Assembly (NCBI GenBank): GCA_903877165.1
Contig: CAIRCU010000012.1
Span: 1 to 64,000, forward strand
DNA: 64,000 bases
Source of the DNA: Methanobacteriota archaeon
Lineage (GTDB): Archaea; Thermoplasmatota; E2; DHVEG-1
Reading direction: 5' to 3'
A program made the translations under genes and the position numbers. Shown here one piece after another: positions 19,629-54,889 of this stretch (positions are counted from its first letter, which is position 1; each line of letters starts with the position of its first letter). Below the pieces are notes generated by a model. The model saw nothing but the letters and a program-made list of their open reading frames with translations. It was not told the DNA's origin and ran no database searches.

Positions 19629-21050
19629 CTAGGAGTATCCCCCAAGCTGCAGGCTGGGGTCTCCGAGCAGCACCCAGGAGCTGATGACCTTGGAGTCGAT
19701 CCAGGTGTCTGAGCCGCCCAGGCCGCCCGAATCAACAGGGTAGGTCGCGCCGTACCATTTCAGGGCTGCAGCCCATACATCGCCCAGCCGCAGGCTGTGG
19801 TTGTGGCCGTACGCGTTGAAGAACGCGACCTCGAGCTCGTTGATACCGCCATGGAACGAATGCTTATCCTCCTTGGTGAACCCCAGGGCGGTGACGCCGA
19901 TCGTGCCGACGGTGCCACCGTTACGGACGGACAGTGACCGCTCACCCCAGCACTCTGGGACGTACTCCTGCCGCCAGCGCAATGTATAATTTAAGAGACG
20001 CCGCAGGCAGACATCGAACTGGCAGTTATGGCAGCCGCTCACAATGCAGACCGGCAGCCGATCGTGGTTGCGGAGTTTACGCATGTCGTTGGTGTTCGGT
20101 CCCTGGATGAACGCGGTACTGTTGAACGGGTGGTTCCCCCACTGTTTAGGGCTCCCATGCCCGACGAGGTAGACGAACCCAAAGCCCTGATGGAAGACCT
20201 TGATGACGTCATCCTTCGACTGGAACGTCAGGTTCGAGGCATAGAGTCGAGTCGGGGTGAACCCGGTCATGTTCTCGATGGCGCGGTCCCCGTAGTATTC
20301 CCCTTCGCAGCCCGTCCAGTTCGGGTTCTCACTCTGAGGGTAGGTGTCGCCCGCGACCACGAGCATCGTGGGGAACCAGGTTGAGGTCGCCGCGGTCGTC
20401 TCATACGCGATAATCTTATTGACTTCCGTTTTTACTTCACGGACCGAGCGGCAGGGGAGACGCCCGACCGCGATATCCGGTGTGTAATCGATGCCGGTGT
20501 CAAGCGCAGGTTGATTCGGATGCCACTCGCCGTACAATCCGTTCTCATTGGAATCCCAGGTGGAGAACCCGCCTGTGGAGTTGTAGATGTCGGCGAAATA
20601 CAGGTCGCTGAGGAACGTGGTGTCCCAGTCATCACTTGAGCTCTCGTACCGGACAGGGCAGTACCAGGTGTTCGCGATCTGGCTGCTGCGCCCGCCGACA
20701 AGCAGCACGTAATGGATGCCCCATTCCTTGACCGCCTCGGCGATGAAATACTTGACTTTCTCGGCATTATCCCGGCCCTGCCAGAAGGTATGTTGGTAGA
20801 CGTCATTGAGGGTCTCAAGGCGGGTCGTCATGCCCATGGTCTGCTTGTGTTTCACGAGCGGCTGCAAGGCATGGACGAATTGTTGAGGCGCGATGATCAG
20901 AAGTTGATAGACTCCTGGCCCCAGGCTGATAGTACGGACGATGGAGGATGGGGACGTCGTCGGCTGCGCGAACATAGCGGTCTGCGTCGTACTCACCAGC
21001 AGGATAGTCGTGAGGAGAAGAATGGTTTTCTTTGGGATGTGATACGTCAT
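19629..21050 (-). CDS. secreted C25 (gingipain-like) cysteine peptidase, copy 1
   Basis: This 473-residue protein has a signal peptide (hydrophobic residues 9-26). The catalytic domain begins near residue 47 (YQLLIIAPQQFVHALQPL). The His/Cys pair typical of clan CD peptidases is visible as H298 in VYLVGHGSPKQWG and C340 in PVCIVSGCHNCQFD. Between them and before are family segments DIAVGRLPCRSVREV and VVAGDTYPQSENPNWTG. The C-terminus ends in WVLLGDPSLQLGGYS. No membrane anchor or long prodomain is present. It lies just downstream of a paralogue on the same strand (70-base gap with its own TATA-like AT-rich stretch). The likely role is extracellular protein breakdown; the cleavage specificity is unknown. 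Confidence 0.85.
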   Translation of the reverse strand: MTYHIPKKTILLLTTILLVSTTQTAMFAQPTTSPSSIVRTISLGPGVYQLLIIAPQQFVHALQPLVKHKQTMGMTTRLETLNDVYQHTFWQGRDNAEKVKYFIAEAVKEWGIHYVLLVGGRSSQIANTWYCPVRYESSSDDWDTTFLSDLYFADIYNSTGGFSTWDSNENGLYGEWHPNQPALDTGIDYTPDIAVGRLPCRSVREVKTEVNKIIAYETTAATSTWFPTMLVVAGDTYPQSENPNWTGCEGEYYGDRAIENMTGFTPTRLYASNLTFQSKDDVIKVFHQGFGFVYLVGHGSPKQWGNHPFNSTAFIQGPNTNDMRKLRNHDRLPVCIVSGCHNCQFDVCLRRLLNYTLRWRQEYVPECWGERSLSVRNGGTVGTIGVTALGFTKEDKHSFHGGINELEVAFFNAYGHNHSLRLGDVWAAALKWYGATYPVDSGGLGGSDTWIDSKVISSWVLLGDPSLQLGGYS

Positions 21051-21080
21051 TGGTTATTCCCCTATTCTCATCGTCCTCTA

Positions 21081-21090
21081 CCTTAATAAA
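21081..21090 (-). promoter_or_regulatory. probable TATA box of C25 peptidase copy 1
   Basis: TTTATTAAGG on the minus strand, about 35 bases before the ATG at 21050, within a run of A/T. Confidence 0.4.
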
Positions 21091-21120
21091 TTTTTATGAA
21101 GAAATTAATAAAAAAAAAGG

Positions 21121-22572
21121 TTACGAGGTGGGTGGGTAGCCACCAATCTTGAGGCTCGGGTCGCCGAATAACGCCCACTGTTGGACGGTCTTCGCGTCAA
21201 TCGCGAAGTCCCAGGCTGCCTTCGTCTGCCAGTTGACGGGGTAGTGGTTGAGGTAGTCTCGGATTGTGTTGCCCCAGGCCTTCCCCAGGATGTCGGTGTG
21301 GTTCGTGCCGACTTCGTAGAAGAACGTTGGCTCCATGTAGTCCCCGGCTCCGCTGAACGACTGTTTGTCCTCTTTGGACATGCCCAGACCGGTGCAGCCG
21401 ATGGTGGCGATCGCACCGCCACGGCTGAGGCGGGTCATCTTCCATCCCCAGCACTCAGGGACCCAGGTGTATTTCCAGAATTCGCCGGAGTTCGTCTTGT
21501 TCCCCGTGAAGTAGCGGATCCCATAGGTCAGTAGGCCGCGAAGGATGTTGCGGGATGTCACGTCGAACTCGTTGTTGTGGCAGCCGCCGACCACGCAGAT
21601 CGGCAACATGTCGCCGTTGCGAAGACGATCCATTCTCCGTGTATTGAGTCCTTCGAGCCAGGCGGTCGAGTTCTCCGGATGGGTCGTCCATGCGTAGGCA
21701 TTCCCATGGCCTTCGAAGAAAAGGAACCCGCAGCCGTTATTGACCGCTCGTACGATGTCTTTGAATCCTGTGAGCGTCTGGTCGGACGTCCAGAGCTTCA
21801 CCGGGGTGAAACCGGTCATGTTGTCGAGAGCCTGCTGGGTGTTGACTTCTCCTTCGCAGCCGGTCCAGTTCGGGTTCTCGGACTGCGGATAGGTGTCCCC
21901 GGCGCAGACGACCATGCGGTGATACCAGGTCGTGTTATATGCGGTAGTCTCGTAGGTGATGATCTTGTGCACCATGGTGCGGACTTCGCCGGTGTTGCGA
22001 CAGGCGAGCCGGCCGACGTACACATCGGGGTACAGGTCGATGTTGGGGTCCGCTGCGGTCGCACCGAACCATTCGCCGAACCGCCCGTTGTTGTTCGTAT
22101 CCCAACTGGAGAAGCTCCCGTTGCTATCGTAGATGTCCGCGTAGTACAGCTCGGAGATAAAGCGCGGCTCCGTCCAGAATGTGTTGTTGTCCGCGTTGTA
22201 GACATACCGGATTGGCATCTGGGTGTAGTCCCCGACCAGCATGACGTAGGTGATTCCCCATGCTTCGATCGCGTCTTTGATGAAGTACTTGATTTTCTCC
22301 GGGTTATCCCGGCCCTGCCAAAAGGTCTGCTGATAGACCTGCTGGAGCGTCACCAGTTTGGTTTTCACACCGACGCTGTCCTTATGGACGACCAGCGGCC
22401 GTAGCTCCCGGACATACTGTTTCGGCGTGATGATGAGCAAATCATAGGTGGAGATGGTCTTTGGCTGGCTCGTGGAAGGTTTTAGGTCCGCATTTTGGGC
22501 AAGTGTGATTTGCCCCAGGAAAAACAGGCTGCAGAGAAGAGCAAAAAGGATGCGTGTGCCCATATGGTTCAT
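21121..22572 (-). CDS. secreted C25 (gingipain-like) cysteine peptidase, copy 2
   Basis: This 483-residue paralogue of the next gene on the strand shares its layout. It has a signal peptide to about residue 25, a catalytic domain starting at YDLLIITPKQYVRELRPL, the catalytic His at H289 (FFEGHGNAYAWTTHPENS) and the catalytic Cys at C331 (MLPICVVGGCHNNEFD). The shared segment VVCAGDTYPQSENPNWTGCEGE and the C-terminal WALLGDPSLKIGGYPP show a recent duplication relative to the two more distant C25 genes in the window. A GGGGGT tract just before the ATG at 22572 may be the ribosome-binding site; a second ATG three codons later is possible. Confidence 0.85.
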   Translation of the reverse strand: MNHMGTRILFALLCSLFFLGQITLAQNADLKPSTSQPKTISTYDLLIITPKQYVRELRPLVVHKDSVGVKTKLVTLQQVYQQTFWQGRDNPEKIKYFIKDAIEAWGITYVMLVGDYTQMPIRYVYNADNNTFWTEPRFISELYYADIYDSNGSFSSWDTNNNGRFGEWFGATAADPNIDLYPDVYVGRLACRNTGEVRTMVHKIITYETTAYNTTWYHRMVVCAGDTYPQSENPNWTGCEGEVNTQQALDNMTGFTPVKLWTSDQTLTGFKDIVRAVNNGCGFLFFEGHGNAYAWTTHPENSTAWLEGLNTRRMDRLRNGDMLPICVVGGCHNNEFDVTSRNILRGLLTYGIRYFTGNKTNSGEFWKYTWVPECWGWKMTRLSRGGAIATIGCTGLGMSKEDKQSFSGAGDYMEPTFFYEVGTNHTDILGKAWGNTIRDYLNHYPVNWQTKAAWDFAIDAKTVQQWALFGDPSLKIGGYPPTS

Positions 22573-33442: not shown

Positions 33443-33470
33443 TTGAGATTCCGCTCGGACATAAGGATAG

Positions 33471-33480
33471 TTTTATATAA
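33471..33480 (-). promoter_or_regulatory. TATA box of leuS
   Basis: TTATATAAAA on the minus strand, about 33 bases before the ATG at 33442. Confidence 0.65.
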
Positions 33481-33514
33481 GACTTTCAGCCAGCTTAAGT
33501 TATTCTGATTTCTC

Positions 33515-33585
33515 CCGTTATCCCCTTGTCTTAGTATCCTCTCTGGCTTAATCTATCTTCCGAAAAAAGGGGTGGAGGATAACGG
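33515..33585. other. long inverted repeat in the leuS / small secreted protein gap
   Basis: CCGTTATCC (33515-33523) and GGATAACGG (33577-33585) are perfect 9-base inverted arms. Alternatively, an inner arm CCCCTT (33522-33527) pairs with AAGGGG (33567-33572) and continues the outer stem with a six-base bulge. The element lies in the 277-base divergent gap between leuS (minus) and the gene at 33720 (plus), outside both predicted promoters. It could be a small structured RNA, a regulator site or a remnant of a small mobile repeat. Confidence 0.35.
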
Positions 33586-33652
33586 ACAGAGATGAAAGCA
33601 GGCTCATAGAAAAGGGACGTTTTCATACAATTGGAGCAGATAAACCTCAATC

Positions 33653-33662
33653 TGGCTTATAT
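33653..33662 (+). promoter_or_regulatory. TATA box of the small secreted protein gene
   Basis: CTTATATATT, about 62 bases before the TTG start at 33720; predicted transcript start near 33686. Confidence 0.55.
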
Positions 33663-33719
33663 ATTGCTTCGATAGTTTGATATTGTTCTTCTGTCATTCC
33701 TTTGTTAGGGAGGCGTCCC

Positions 33720-34100
33720 TTGAAGAAGTTGATCACATTTGGGGTTATCCTGCTGTTTTTCGGCTCGAGCATTCCAGTTTTAGCCTATGCTAATGAGAAG
33801 AGTATCTTATCTCCGTTCAATGATGTTACGATACAAATCAGAGGCGGATGGAAACTTAAGGTTGAGATAAAAAACAGCGGAACTTCAGAAATTAGTGCAT
33901 ACACTGAATTATTTTCAGCGCGACTCATAATTCCAGGAACTTTCAATGATACTGAATATGGTACTGTCACGTCTGGTGAGACCGATGTATTATCCTATAC
34001 ATTAGCCGGAATTAGCAGATTCAATATAACTGCAAGTGCTGCCAACGAAACAGTATCAAAGAAAGGGTTGTCTTTCTTTGGGTTTGTTGTTTTAACTTAA
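33720..34100 (+). CDS. small secreted protein of unknown function
   Basis: About 126 residues. The start is taken as the TTG at 33720, placed six bases after GGGAGG (33708-33713); the longer frame from 33702 runs through that site. The N-terminus KKLITFGVILLFFGSSIPVLAYAN is a clear signal peptide. The mature part (about 100 residues) is predicted all-beta, with KLKVEIKNSGTSEISAYTELFS and YGTVTSGETDVLSYTLAG. This resembles small CARDB-like or surface beta-sandwich domains, and I do not recognise the family. The gene is more AT-rich than its neighbours, which is compatible with transfer. No anchor is visible. Confidence 0.65.
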   Translation: MKKLITFGVILLFFGSSIPVLAYANEKSILSPFNDVTIQIRGGWKLKVEIKNSGTSEISAYTELFSARLIIPGTFNDTEYGTVTSGETDVLSYTLAGISRFNITASAANETVSKKGLSFFGFVVLT

Positions 34101-34164
34101 CTCATAGAAAATAAACCTCTCTCCTGAATGGTTTTCTACTCCGTCTCGTTCTCCTCTTCGTGAT

Positions 34165-34278
34165 TTACCTTGGAAGGCCCCGAGTCGTATACTCTTCCTT
34201 CAGCCGTCGAAGTTCCTCATCGGTGATTGTATCCTCTTTCAGGATTGAATCAATCAGAGCAGCGTCATATTTATCCAT
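34165..34278 (-). CDS. tiny ORF D of the micro-operon (37 residues)
   Basis: This is the fourth and last frame of a minus-strand chain of overlapping small genes. It encodes 37 residues beginning MDKYDAALIDSILKEDTIT, charged and predicted helical (DEELRRLKEEY). The ATG at 34278 sits six bases after GAGGAGG and overlaps the stop of the preceding frame by 8 bases, so it is probably translationally coupled. It contains no cysteines. Function unknown; the length alone would make it doubtful, but the ribosome-binding site and chain context support it. Confidence 0.5.
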   Translation of the reverse strand: MDKYDAALIDSILKEDTITDEELRRLKEEYTTRGLPR

Positions 34279-34363
34279 TGATTTCCTCCTCATCATCGTC
34301 ATCATCATCCGGCCACGGACGCGGTATATCGGGAATATCGTCAGGCCACTCTGGACTGTTCAT
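34271..34363 (-). CDS. tiny acidic ORF C of the micro-operon (30 residues)
   Basis: This frame encodes 30 residues beginning MNSPEWPDDIPDIPRPWP, followed by six Asp and three Glu; it is extremely acidic and rich in proline and tryptophan. Its ATG at 34363 shares ATGA with the stop of ORF B and is preceded by GGGGAGG five bases away. The acidic run in the DNA is also the ribosome-binding site of the next frame (GAGGAGG), so part of the acidity could be forced by that overlap. Function unknown. Confidence 0.4.
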   Translation of the reverse strand: MNSPEWPDDIPDIPRPWPDDDDDDEEEING

Positions 34364-34497
34364 CGAATCCTCCCCACTCGACGACTCTCACACCGAGGAC
34401 ACACGACATTACCATCTATGACGATATGGCTGGGGTAGTACTTGAGGAATCGCTCCCCGCATTTCAAACAACGAAAGACACCCTTCGTAGGAATCAT
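34360..34497 (-). CDS. small zinc-ribbon protein B of the micro-operon (45 residues)
   Basis: The 45-residue product has four cysteines in two knuckles, FRCLKCGERF (C10, C13) and VVCPRCESRR (C33, C36), a zinc ribbon with a 19-residue spacer. The spacer reads LKYYPSHIVIDGNVV, and the tail is arginine-rich (RRVGRIR). It starts at the ATG at 34497, sharing ATGA with the stop of ORF A; AAGGAG ten bases upstream can serve as ribosome-binding site. Small two-knuckle zinc proteins of this size are common but poorly characterised in archaea. RNA, DNA or protein binding is possible. Confidence 0.65.
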   Translation of the reverse strand: MIPTKGVFRCLKCGERFLKYYPSHIVIDGNVVCPRCESRRVGRIR

Positions 34498-34616
34498 ACC
34501 ACTTCAGTCTCCTTGGGAAAAACCACCAGGACATCTGCGCTCCCGCAATCCGGACAACGGAGAATATCCTGAGCGATGTACTCATACGGGCAATGACGGC
34601 AGGCAGAGAAACCCAT
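34494..34616 (-). CDS. small CPxCG zinc-ribbon protein A of the micro-operon (40 residues)
   Basis: The 40-residue product has CRHC (C6-C9) and CPDCGS (C21-C24), the rubredoxin-like or CPxCG zinc-ribbon pattern, and a hydrophobic end ADVLVVF. In-frame DNA upstream of the ATG at 34616 is a TAA stop, so the start is fixed. No ribosome-binding site precedes it, consistent with a leaderless first gene of a transcript; a TATA box at the right distance is weak. The gene is divergent from the C25 peptidase gene at 34660, and their regulatory regions share about 45 bases. Confidence 0.65.
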   Translation of the reverse strand: MGFSACRHCPYEYIAQDILRCPDCGSADVLVVFPKETEVV

Positions 34617-34622
34617 TTATAG
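34614..34622 (+). promoter_or_regulatory. TATA box of C25 peptidase copy 3
   Basis: CATTTATAG, about 42 bases before the ATG at 34660. It overlaps the start codon of the divergent small zinc-ribbon gene, so the two units could compete. Confidence 0.5.
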
Positions 34623-34659
34623 GAGTGTCGTATCTACATCATGTAAGGGGGATTACCTC

Positions 34660-36414
34660 ATGAAAAACCTAAACGTATTCTTCATTGCTGTCACGCTTCT
34701 TGTCTCCTGCGTCGGGGCTTCGCAGGCGCTCGCCGGATCATCAGTGCAGATGCGCTCCGAACAGCTCAGCGCCTCCGCACCGTTAATTTCTCTAACGACA
34801 GACGGAACCCAGGTGACCGTCACAGAGGCGACCTCGTACGCATCAACCCCGGGATCTCCGGTCCTGCCTCGCATCACCAAAGTCTTCACGTTTCCCCTCG
34901 GCACCCGTGTACAGTCCGTGCAGTTTGTGACATCCTCATCAACGACGATGACCATTCCGGCTCCCGTGGTGCTCGCATCGCAGCCGACAACGCTGGACAC
35001 CACCCTTTCCTCACCAGCCCAGGTTGCTTCGAACCGCAATGCACCTGTCCAGTGCTCGTATCGACTCGGCGCAGGACTCCAAGGAAATGACCATGTGCTC
35101 TTCGTCCTCGTCGACTTCTACCCCTGCATCACCAAACCAGGAGAGTATACGATGACCGTGACGCCATCCGTACAGGTCACGATCTCCTATGAACTGCCCC
35201 CGCAGACACTGAAGACTACGGGTGAGTACGACGGCCTCATCATCGCCCCACAGGCATACAGCACGGCCTTGCAGCCGCTCATCGTCCACAAACAGAGCAT
35301 GGGCCTCAAGATGATGCTTCTCACCGTCGAGAACATCACCGCATCCTACCCTGGACGCGACCAGACAGAACAGATCAAGTACGCCATCAAAGACATCGTG
35401 GAGACGAAGGGCGTCACCTCCGTGCTCCTCGTCGGCGGGGTGGACGTACTCCCCATCCGCCAGTGTCAGGGGATGCAATGGATGGGCGACGTCATCACTG
35501 ATCTCTACTACGCGGACATCTATAATGCGAACGGGAGTTTCTGCAGCTGGGATGCCAACAACAACAACGTCTTCGGTGAGGACGCCGATCACATGGACCT
35601 CTTCCCGGACGTCAGACTCGGCAGGCTCGCCTGCGCCTCAGTAGATGACGTGACCACGGTCGTCGACAAGATCATCCATTACGAGACCGGGACGTACGGC
35701 AGCGACTGGTTCAAGACCATGATTTTCATCGGCGGCGACACCTTCCGCTGGAGCCCAGGAAACGACGGCGAAGACCTCAACCTCATCATCCATGGCATCA
35801 TGTCGGACTTCAACCCAATCTATATTTGGACATCGAAAGGGAACTTCAACCGGGCGACCATCTCCGGGACCATCACCCAAGGGGCCGGGTTCGTCGACTA
35901 CTCAGGACATGGGTTCGAGAACGGCATGGGTACCTACAAGCCCCTCGGCACCCATCTGGAGACCTACCTCATCCAATACGTCAAAGACCTCAAGAACGGC
36001 TACAAACTCCCGATCATCTTCTTTGACGCCTGCCTCACTGCGAGAATCGACTACGTCCTGCAAGATCTCCTCGACTATCGCGTCTATTTCGCCTTCAACC
36101 TCGCAGCAAAAATCTTAAAGATCAACACCTCGGTGCGAAGACCCTGTTTCGCCTGGGCGTTCCTCACCCAACAAGATGGCGGCGCGATCGCCACAATCGG
36201 TGCGACCCGGACCGCGTTCGGCGGAGTGGATGAAGGCGCCGGGAAGATCGCCATCGAGTTCTTCCAGACCTACAACACCAGCACCTACCTTGGGGAGATG
36301 ATCACCGGCATGCAAGAAGGCTACATCAGGGATGTGCCAAGCGATGCCTTCACCGTCCAAGAGTTCATGCTCCTTGGTGATCCGACGTTGCGGATCGGCG
36401 GCTACCCATCCTGA
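34660..36414 (+). CDS. secreted C25 (gingipain-like) cysteine peptidase with N-terminal prodomain, copy 3
   Basis: 584 residues. A signal peptide (to about A25) is followed by a prodomain-like region (30-180, with PGSPVLPRITKVFTFPLGT, as in gingipain-type propeptides). The catalytic domain starts at YDGLIIAPQAYSTALQPL. The catalytic His is H417 (FVDYSGHGFENGMG), and the Cys is C458 (PIIFFDACLTARID). DVRLGRLACASVDDV and the C-terminal FMLLGDPTLRIGGYPS tie it to the two tandem copies at 19.6-22.6 kb, which lack the prodomain. An AAGGGGGAT stretch precedes the ATG. The role is presumably secreted protease for external protein. Confidence 0.87.
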   Translation: MKNLNVFFIAVTLLVSCVGASQALAGSSVQMRSEQLSASAPLISLTTDGTQVTVTEATSYASTPGSPVLPRITKVFTFPLGTRVQSVQFVTSSSTTMTIPAPVVLASQPTTLDTTLSSPAQVASNRNAPVQCSYRLGAGLQGNDHVLFVLVDFYPCITKPGEYTMTVTPSVQVTISYELPPQTLKTTGEYDGLIIAPQAYSTALQPLIVHKQSMGLKMMLLTVENITASYPGRDQTEQIKYAIKDIVETKGVTSVLLVGGVDVLPIRQCQGMQWMGDVITDLYYADIYNANGSFCSWDANNNNVFGEDADHMDLFPDVRLGRLACASVDDVTTVVDKIIHYETGTYGSDWFKTMIFIGGDTFRWSPGNDGEDLNLIIHGIMSDFNPIYIWTSKGNFNRATISGTITQGAGFVDYSGHGFENGMGTYKPLGTHLETYLIQYVKDLKNGYKLPIIFFDACLTARIDYVLQDLLDYRVYFAFNLAAKILKINTSVRRPCFAWAFLTQQDGGAIATIGATRTAFGGVDEGAGKIAIEFFQTYNTSTYLGEMITGMQEGYIRDVPSDAFTVQEFMLLGDPTLRIGGYPS

Positions 36415-53554: not shown

Positions 53555-54889
53555 ATGGAAGATGCCCTCACAGTCCTAGGAGTCATCACTTCCGACCGGA
53601 AGAAACTGGAGAGCATGGGCATTACCACGCTGGAGCAGATCGCGCTCAGTTCCGTACAGTCCCTGGGCATGGGACCAGGGAAAGGCACGATGCTCATCCA
53701 ACGGGCACGCAACATCCTCGCCAACCAAAACATCCTGGAAATCAGCGTGACCAGCGACGACCTCGTCGAAGTCACGGTCAAGAAACGCGACCGCGCCGTG
53801 GTCAAATCCGTACTGAACGCCTTAGACATCTACGCGGTCGGCTGGGGCAACGCCGCCCTCAGCATTGAAGGCAACATCCTGCGACTCACCCGCAAATCCC
53901 CCGCGTTCTCCCAGGTCATCACCAAAGCCGAAGGACTCCGAGAAATCCTCGAGGCCAAACAAATCCAGGACCAGGAGCGCCATGGCATCACGCTGCCGGA
54001 AGACGCGCTGCACAAATTCGCAAAAGAACGCGGCTTCGCCGGCTTCTGGCACAACGTCTTCCACGAAATCCAAGGCAACGAAACCATGAAAAAAGTCGTC
54101 GCCACCAGCCTCTTCTCAACCTTCGACGAACCCGTACATTCCCTCATCATCGGCGAGCCGGGCAGCAGCAAAACCATGGCCAAGGAGATCATCAGCAGCG
54201 AGTTCACCGACGTCATCACCATCGGCGCCAACACCACACGCTCAGGCTTGGTCTGTCATCTGGGCACCGGCGAACTCGGCGCGCTGCCGCACGCGGACCA
54301 CAAAGTCATCCTCGTCGACGAATTCGACAAGATCCCCGAAGACGACATCGAATACTGCTACGAACTCCTCAGCAACGGCAAATGCAGCGTGCATTCCGCC
54401 AGGCTGCACCAAACCATCGAAAGCCAGTTCATCATGGTCGCCTTCGCCAACCCACGCACCAAAGTCTTTGGTAAACAAGCACTCGACGACATCGGCCTCT
54501 CGCCACTGCTCCTGAGCCGCTGCGCCCTAGTAGTACGCGTGGAAAACATCAGCAAACACGACCGCCTCGAACTCTTCAGAAAAAAATTCTACGGCCACGG
54601 CGAAGCCTACGAAAAACACGACTACTACGACCAATGGGTCAAACTCGCACGCCGCTACCACCCCACCATCACCGCAACAGAGACCGCAGTCGAACGCTAC
54701 CTTCAAGACATGAACGACATCGTCGACACCCACATCAACACCACACTGCGCCGCGACCTGCGCATGTCCGACTACCTCAGACGCATCCCCTTCGCCATCG
54801 CTAGAGCCAACTTCTCGGCCGTCACCAACACCATCCTTAAAGAAGCCATGAGCATCACCCAAGAATCCCTGGAGACATGGGAACCATGA
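53555..54889 (+). CDS. MCM-like AAA+ ATPase with N-terminal helix-hairpin-helix domain
   Basis: 444 residues. The N-terminus (1-58) is a HhH-type helical domain (LESMGITTLEQIALSSVQSL, then GPGKGTMLIQRARNIL), as at the N-terminus of RadA-like proteins. Residues 60-150 are a small beta/alpha region. Then an AAA+ module begins with VFHEIQGNETMKKVVATSLF, similar to the entry of MCM helicases. Walker A is GEPGSSKT (200-207), Walker B VILVDEFDK (251-259), sensor-1 region AFANPRTKVFG, and arginine-finger region LSPLLLSRCALVV (R322). The MCM N-terminal zinc and OB domains are absent, so it is not a replicative MCM. It overlaps nadE by 4 bases. Role unknown; DNA-linked ATPase is the inference. Confidence 0.8.
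   Translation: MEDALTVLGVITSDRKKLESMGITTLEQIALSSVQSLGMGPGKGTMLIQRARNILANQNILEISVTSDDLVEVTVKKRDRAVVKSVLNALDIYAVGWGNAALSIEGNILRLTRKSPAFSQVITKAEGLREILEAKQIQDQERHGITLPEDALHKFAKERGFAGFWHNVFHEIQGNETMKKVVATSLFSTFDEPVHSLIIGEPGSSKTMAKEIISSEFTDVITIGANTTRSGLVCHLGTGELGALPHADHKVILVDEFDKIPEDDIEYCYELLSNGKCSVHSARLHQTIESQFIMVAFANPRTKVFGKQALDDIGLSPLLLSRCALVVRVENISKHDRLELFRKKFYGHGEAYEKHDYYDQWVKLARRYHPTITATETAVERYLQDMNDIVDTHINTTLRRDLRMSDYLRRIPFAIARANFSAVTNTILKEAMSITQESLETWEP

Follow-up and report, generated by a model that had tools for sequence, protein, structure and literature searches.

A chain of four overlapping micro-genes with two predicted zinc ribbons between leuS and a C25 peptidase gene in a Thermoplasmatota genome

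During the analysis of a 64-kb stretch of archaeal DNA, referred to here as the window in its full length, a chain of four very small overlapping genes was recognized on the minus strand between leuS and a gene for a C25-family peptidase. The best explanation, to which a probability of about one half is given, is that this is a real micro-operon which was gained at this position, which probably derives from a mobile element, and whose zinc ribbons act as regulatory adaptors. The products of ORF1 and ORF2 would be stand-alone zinc ribbons. The four frames would be read from one transcript, and ribosomes would pass from one frame to the next by termination and reinitiation, using the ATGA overlaps and the Shine-Dalgarno sites inside the chain. 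The putative source is an integrated mobile element of the plasmid or provirus type, namely its region of small genes, and the micro-operon would now stand isolated between leuS and C25. Like Brz, the zinc ribbons probably have a regulatory role as small adaptors, which would bind either nucleic acid or the transcription machinery, and the charged peptides may be their partners, as Brb is for Brz. The connection to mobile elements is the main new information, and it was absent from an earlier sequence-only reading of this DNA. The results suggest that chains of unannotated micro-genes from uncultivated archaea can be real. They also link a narrow family of zinc ribbons to integrated elements within one family of the Thermoplasmatota, and provide a concrete set of small proteins for work on metal binding and regulation.

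Four coupled frames and their coding potential

Direct reading confirmed the coordinates of four minus-strand frames of 40, 45, 30 and 37 codons, for which overlaps of 4, 4 and 8 bases had been described. The frames, their start sites and the intervals that contain them are as follows.

34494–34616 (minus): ORF1, predicted 40-aa zinc-ribbon protein, CRHC-x11-CPDCG; evidence from nine family homologues and the profile score
34509–34514 (minus): AAGGAG, possible start site of ORF2, 11 nt before it, a weak and long spacing; direct reading
34360–34497 (minus): ORF2, predicted 45-aa zinc-ribbon protein, CLKCG-x19-CPRCE; evidence from distant zinc-ribbon relatives
34369–34375 (minus): GGGGAGG, Shine-Dalgarno site of ORF3, 5-nt spacing; direct reading
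34271–34363 (minus): ORF3, 30-aa acidic peptide rich in Pro, Asp and Glu; evidence from the overlap and the Shine-Dalgarno site only
34285–34290 (minus): AGGAGG, Shine-Dalgarno site of ORF4, 6-nt spacing; direct reading
34165–34278 (minus): ORF4, 37-aa charged, probably helical peptide; evidence from the overlap and a strong Shine-Dalgarno site
33443–34659 (no strand): AT-rich stretch separating leuS from the divergent C25 gene; the micro-operon and a secreted-protein gene lie in it
34617–34659 (no strand): 43-bp gap between the divergent starts of ORF1 and C25; the TATA-like box of C25, TTTATA, overlaps the start of ORF1

ORF1 and ORF2 share the 4 bases ATGA, as do ORF2 and ORF3, and the overlap between ORF3 and ORF4 is 8 bases. 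The two CxxC knuckles noticed earlier in each of the first two frames are present (CRHC and CPDCG in ORF1, CLKCG and CPRCE in ORF2). Ribosome-binding sites had been claimed for the last three frames; those of ORF3 and ORF4 are good, but the AAGGAG of ORF2 stands only at the weak 11-nt spacing. The AGGAGG of ORF4 sits within the codons for the Asp/Glu tail of ORF3. ORF1 itself is preceded by no Shine-Dalgarno site, and a TATA box at leaderless distance is missing as well.

Chains of coupled ATG frames of 28–60 codons were searched on both strands of the window and of 100 sequences of 64 kb each, simulated with a first-order Markov model. One chain of four was found in the window and none in the simulations, in which chains of three or more appeared at 0.06 per 64 kb. 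The synonymous codon usage of ORF1 to ORF4 is nearer to that of non-coding frames than to that of the genes in the window (log10 likelihood ratio −0.5 to −0.8 for each), and the adjacent secreted-protein gene deviates even more. Codon usage alone does not separate the four frames from non-coding frames, and homology is better coding evidence here. An overlapping 58-aa frame (34409–34585) was considered as a gene and rejected for its poor codon score. Scans for Rfam families and tRNAs gave no match.

For ORF1 and ORF2 the micro-operon is probably genuine, and for ORF3 and ORF4 it is plausible. The coupled unit of small zinc proteins proposed from the sequence alone is supported: the chain is improbable by chance, the homology of the ORF1 family is clear, and that of ORF2 is weaker. 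The earlier interpretation as a whole is supported in part.

Relatives of the four products and their link to mobile elements

Nine homologues of ORF1 were found in four genomes (G033, G002, G024 and G004) of the same taxonomic family. The cysteines are invariant in the family alignment, and the core is R-C-P-x-C-x-S. ORF1 reaches 44.4 bits with a profile from which it was left out, compared with a maximum of 28.0 for 5000 shuffles that preserve the cysteines. Synonymous rates are 1.6–2.5 times nonsynonymous rates in three pairs of G033 homologues, a count that leaves out the G024/G002 pair, which is out of register. By direct reading, the G024 copy and the copy on contig C61 of G002 differ in their coding part by two synonymous changes only, and their upstream DNA is unrelated. 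A scan of IMG/VR with two ORF1-family alignments revealed no relative; phage records contained none either, and plasmids gave one weak match only.

A tyrosine integrase gene lies about 3–4 kb away on the same strand for five of the nine homologues (contigs C78, C168, C43 and C25 of G033, and C46 of G002). These do not count as five independent events: G033 has many integrase genes, with 43 matches in about 2.8 Mb, and its four copies may be carried by related elements. No integrase was found within the stretches examined around the other four homologues. The C168 locus of G033 also has a PrimPol/D5 protein, and its C43 locus an MCM helicase. On contigs C78, C168 and C43 of G033, the homologue belongs to a chain of 4–5 overlapping micro-ORFs with start sites, and a second small zinc-ribbon gene is close to it. 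None of these 4–5-frame chains arose in simulations of the same loci. The ORF1 family is narrow and often rides on integrated mobile elements in related archaea. Therefore, the micro-operon is probably a leftover or an adopted piece of such an element. The contig of the window carries no integrase, near the cluster or elsewhere, and a search for flanking repeats of an insertion at the micro-operon gave none that is convincing, so that the element origin of this copy is proposed on the basis of its relatives.

Two further observations concern these genomes. In G033, several integrated elements that appear to be related contain densely packed, overlapping micro-genes (loci L048, L049, L050 and L051). 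The window encodes, at 53555–54889 (plus), a protein of 444 aa whose P-loop domain is of the MCM type (E = 1.5 × 10−15), and a similar protein is found on C61 of G002 (L046), about 1.4 kb away from the ORF1 homologue.

ORF2 scores 36.9 bits against the profile of its relatives, and its shuffles reach 27.0 at most; this evidence is weaker than that for ORF1, because the relatives were picked by similarity to ORF2 and their single-sequence E-values are about 0.004 at best. ORF2 falls below the cut-offs of Pfam Zn_ribbon_8 (26.0 against 34.4 bits, E = 9 × 10−6) and NCBIfam FmdB (21.2 against 31.3 bits, E about 2 × 10−4, more exactly 2.3 × 10−4). It is not the Rpo12 of this genome; the best match to that subunit is a 49-aa frame on another contig (C52:24229–24327), and ORF2 is not among the matches. 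Protein-family searches gave no match for ORF3 or ORF4, and ORF4 has no homologue among 45 genomes of the taxonomic family. ORF3 is of low complexity and is probably a disordered acidic peptide, and ORF4 is probably a short helical peptide. ORF4 was also considered as a defence gene and rejected, its only PADLOC match being weak (E = 0.014). Structure prediction was of moderate confidence for ORF2 (mean pLDDT 74) and poor for ORF1 (pLDDT 59). A fold search with the ORF2 model gave no significant match, and the models are too weak for fold identification of the small proteins.

The quartet was found nowhere else in the genomes searched, and among the matches listed, no other genome has an ORF1-like gene beside an ORF2-like gene. 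The sequence-only reading had looked to related genomes for homologues with conserved cysteines and conserved order. The first expectation was borne out by the ORF1 family, but not the second, and ORF3 and ORF4 have no detectable relatives.

The leuS-C25 locus and competing explanations

In the locus L136, from Euryarchaeota archaeon UBA33, a C25 gene 63% identical to that of the window is the divergent neighbour of leuS; the cluster is absent there, and the gap measures 144 bp, compared with 1217 bp in the window. Among named genomes, the closest ones found have a LeuS that is about 69% identical. The GC content across the leuS-C25 stretch is 0.38–0.53, against 0.555 for the window. The absence of the cluster in L136 means that it was gained in the lineage of the window or lost in that of L136, and gain is the simpler reading in view of the base composition and of a distribution that is patchy.

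The 132-aa secreted protein encoded at 33702–34100 (plus), between leuS and the micro-operon, has a signal peptide, and its gene is of low GC and strongly atypical in codon usage. Other copies in the genome have the leader and the 3′ flank in common with this gene. Just 3′ of it, at 34112–34180 (minus), is a repeat of about 42–65 bp (GGAGTAGAAAACCATTCAGGAGAG), which is also present in G000 at C8:51373–51437 and C24:18709–18750. The secreted-protein genes of C12 and C24 have the start region and signal peptide in common, while their bodies differ. The repeat overlaps the end of ORF4, but it is not regarded as part of the operon; it is assigned to the secreted-protein genes because it is found after them, on the strand opposite to the operon. 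The window contains three C25-family peptidase genes, which lie at 19629–22572 (minus) and 34660–36414 (plus).

The divergent arrangement with the C25 gene was correctly read before, but the link looks accidental, given that leuS and C25 adjoin without the cluster in L136. This bears on the possibility that the micro-operon is a chromosomal regulator of the peptidase gene, a Brz-like local switch on the shared 43-bp promoter region. The closeness of the two starts, with the C25 TATA-like box lying over that of ORF1, would fit such a switch, and Brz itself regulates a neighbouring gene (PMC2253796). It is nevertheless unlikely, since the 63%-identical peptidase gene does without the cluster and five of the nine ORF1 homologues are near integrase genes instead. 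More weight, although it is still doubtful, is given to a decaying remnant, in which ORF1 and ORF2 are former mobile-element genes, expression of the cluster has ceased, and ORF3 and ORF4 are accidental frames. The non-native codon usage, the lack of a clear promoter or start site for ORF1, and the lack of homologues of ORF4 and family matches of ORF3 are in line with decay, as is the low complexity of ORF3 with a Shine-Dalgarno site inside its Asp/Glu tail. The four frames are, however, intact and coupled, the start sites of ORF3 and ORF4 are strong, and the predicted metal-binding motifs are unbroken.

Pure chance frames in an intergenic region are highly improbable: codon usage alone does not set the frames apart from non-coding ones, but no chain of four arose in the simulations and the homology of ORF1 is far beyond that of the cysteine-preserving shuffles. 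A more ambitious idea is that the four products form one undescribed micro-complex, such as two ribbons and an acidic peptide targeting archaeal RNA polymerase or nucleic acid, that is passed between the elements and chromosomes of this archaeal family; this is a long shot. A gained, element-derived set of small proteins, probably regulatory, is the most likely reading.

Comparison with known small zinc proteins

ORF1 shows weak profile similarity to the model of RNA polymerase subunit E″ (Spt4; E = 1.6 × 10−4), and ORF2 to the FmdB and Rpo12 ribbons. All of these matches are far below the curated cut-offs and do not establish family membership, and they suggest that the role of the small proteins may be nucleic-acid- or polymerase-facing. 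HF1-like haloviruses encode many small CxxC proteins, mostly of unknown function (PMC7230728); their hosts are different, and no ORF1 relative is found in phage records.

CPxCG-related small zinc-finger proteins have fewer than 100 residues and paired Cys/His patterns 7–40 residues apart, of which one or more is CPxCG-like (PMC2253796), and those of archaea are often missed by annotation (PMC2253796; Haloferax u-proteins, PMC6562870, PMC11241148). ORF1 and ORF2 are of this type, each being shorter than 100 residues, with 11 and 19 residues, respectively, between the patterns and with CPxCG-like motifs (CPDCG in ORF1, CLKCG and CPRCE in ORF2). The likeness seen is that of the ribbon. Here, two such proteins are encoded in the same coupled unit of four genes, and the genome is that of a member of the Thermoplasmatota. 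In Haloferax, the deletion of 12 out of 16 such genes gave a phenotype under some condition (PMC6562870). Zinc was bound by 9 of 14 purified Haloferax proteins (PMC11241148), and metal binding by ORF1 and ORF2 is thus not to be assumed.

In Halobacterium salinarum, Brz regulates the transcription of bop together with its small basic partner Brb, and the pair is co-transcribed (PMC2253796, PMC3184054). The micro-operon resembles the brz-brb operon in the combination of a small zinc-finger protein with a small charged protein adjoining the promoter of another gene. Unlike the basic Brb, ORF3 is acidic and ORF4 of mixed charge. The comparison is one of working mode only, with no claim of homology.

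The small-gene arrays of the integrase-bearing elements on contigs C78, C168 and C43 of G033 likewise combine an ORF1-family ribbon within a micro-ORF chain and a second ribbon nearby. In the window copy, integrase and replication genes are absent, and the three genes beside ORF1 are not those of the arrays. The kind of gene cluster is already known in general, while its four-gene assembly is unique so far.
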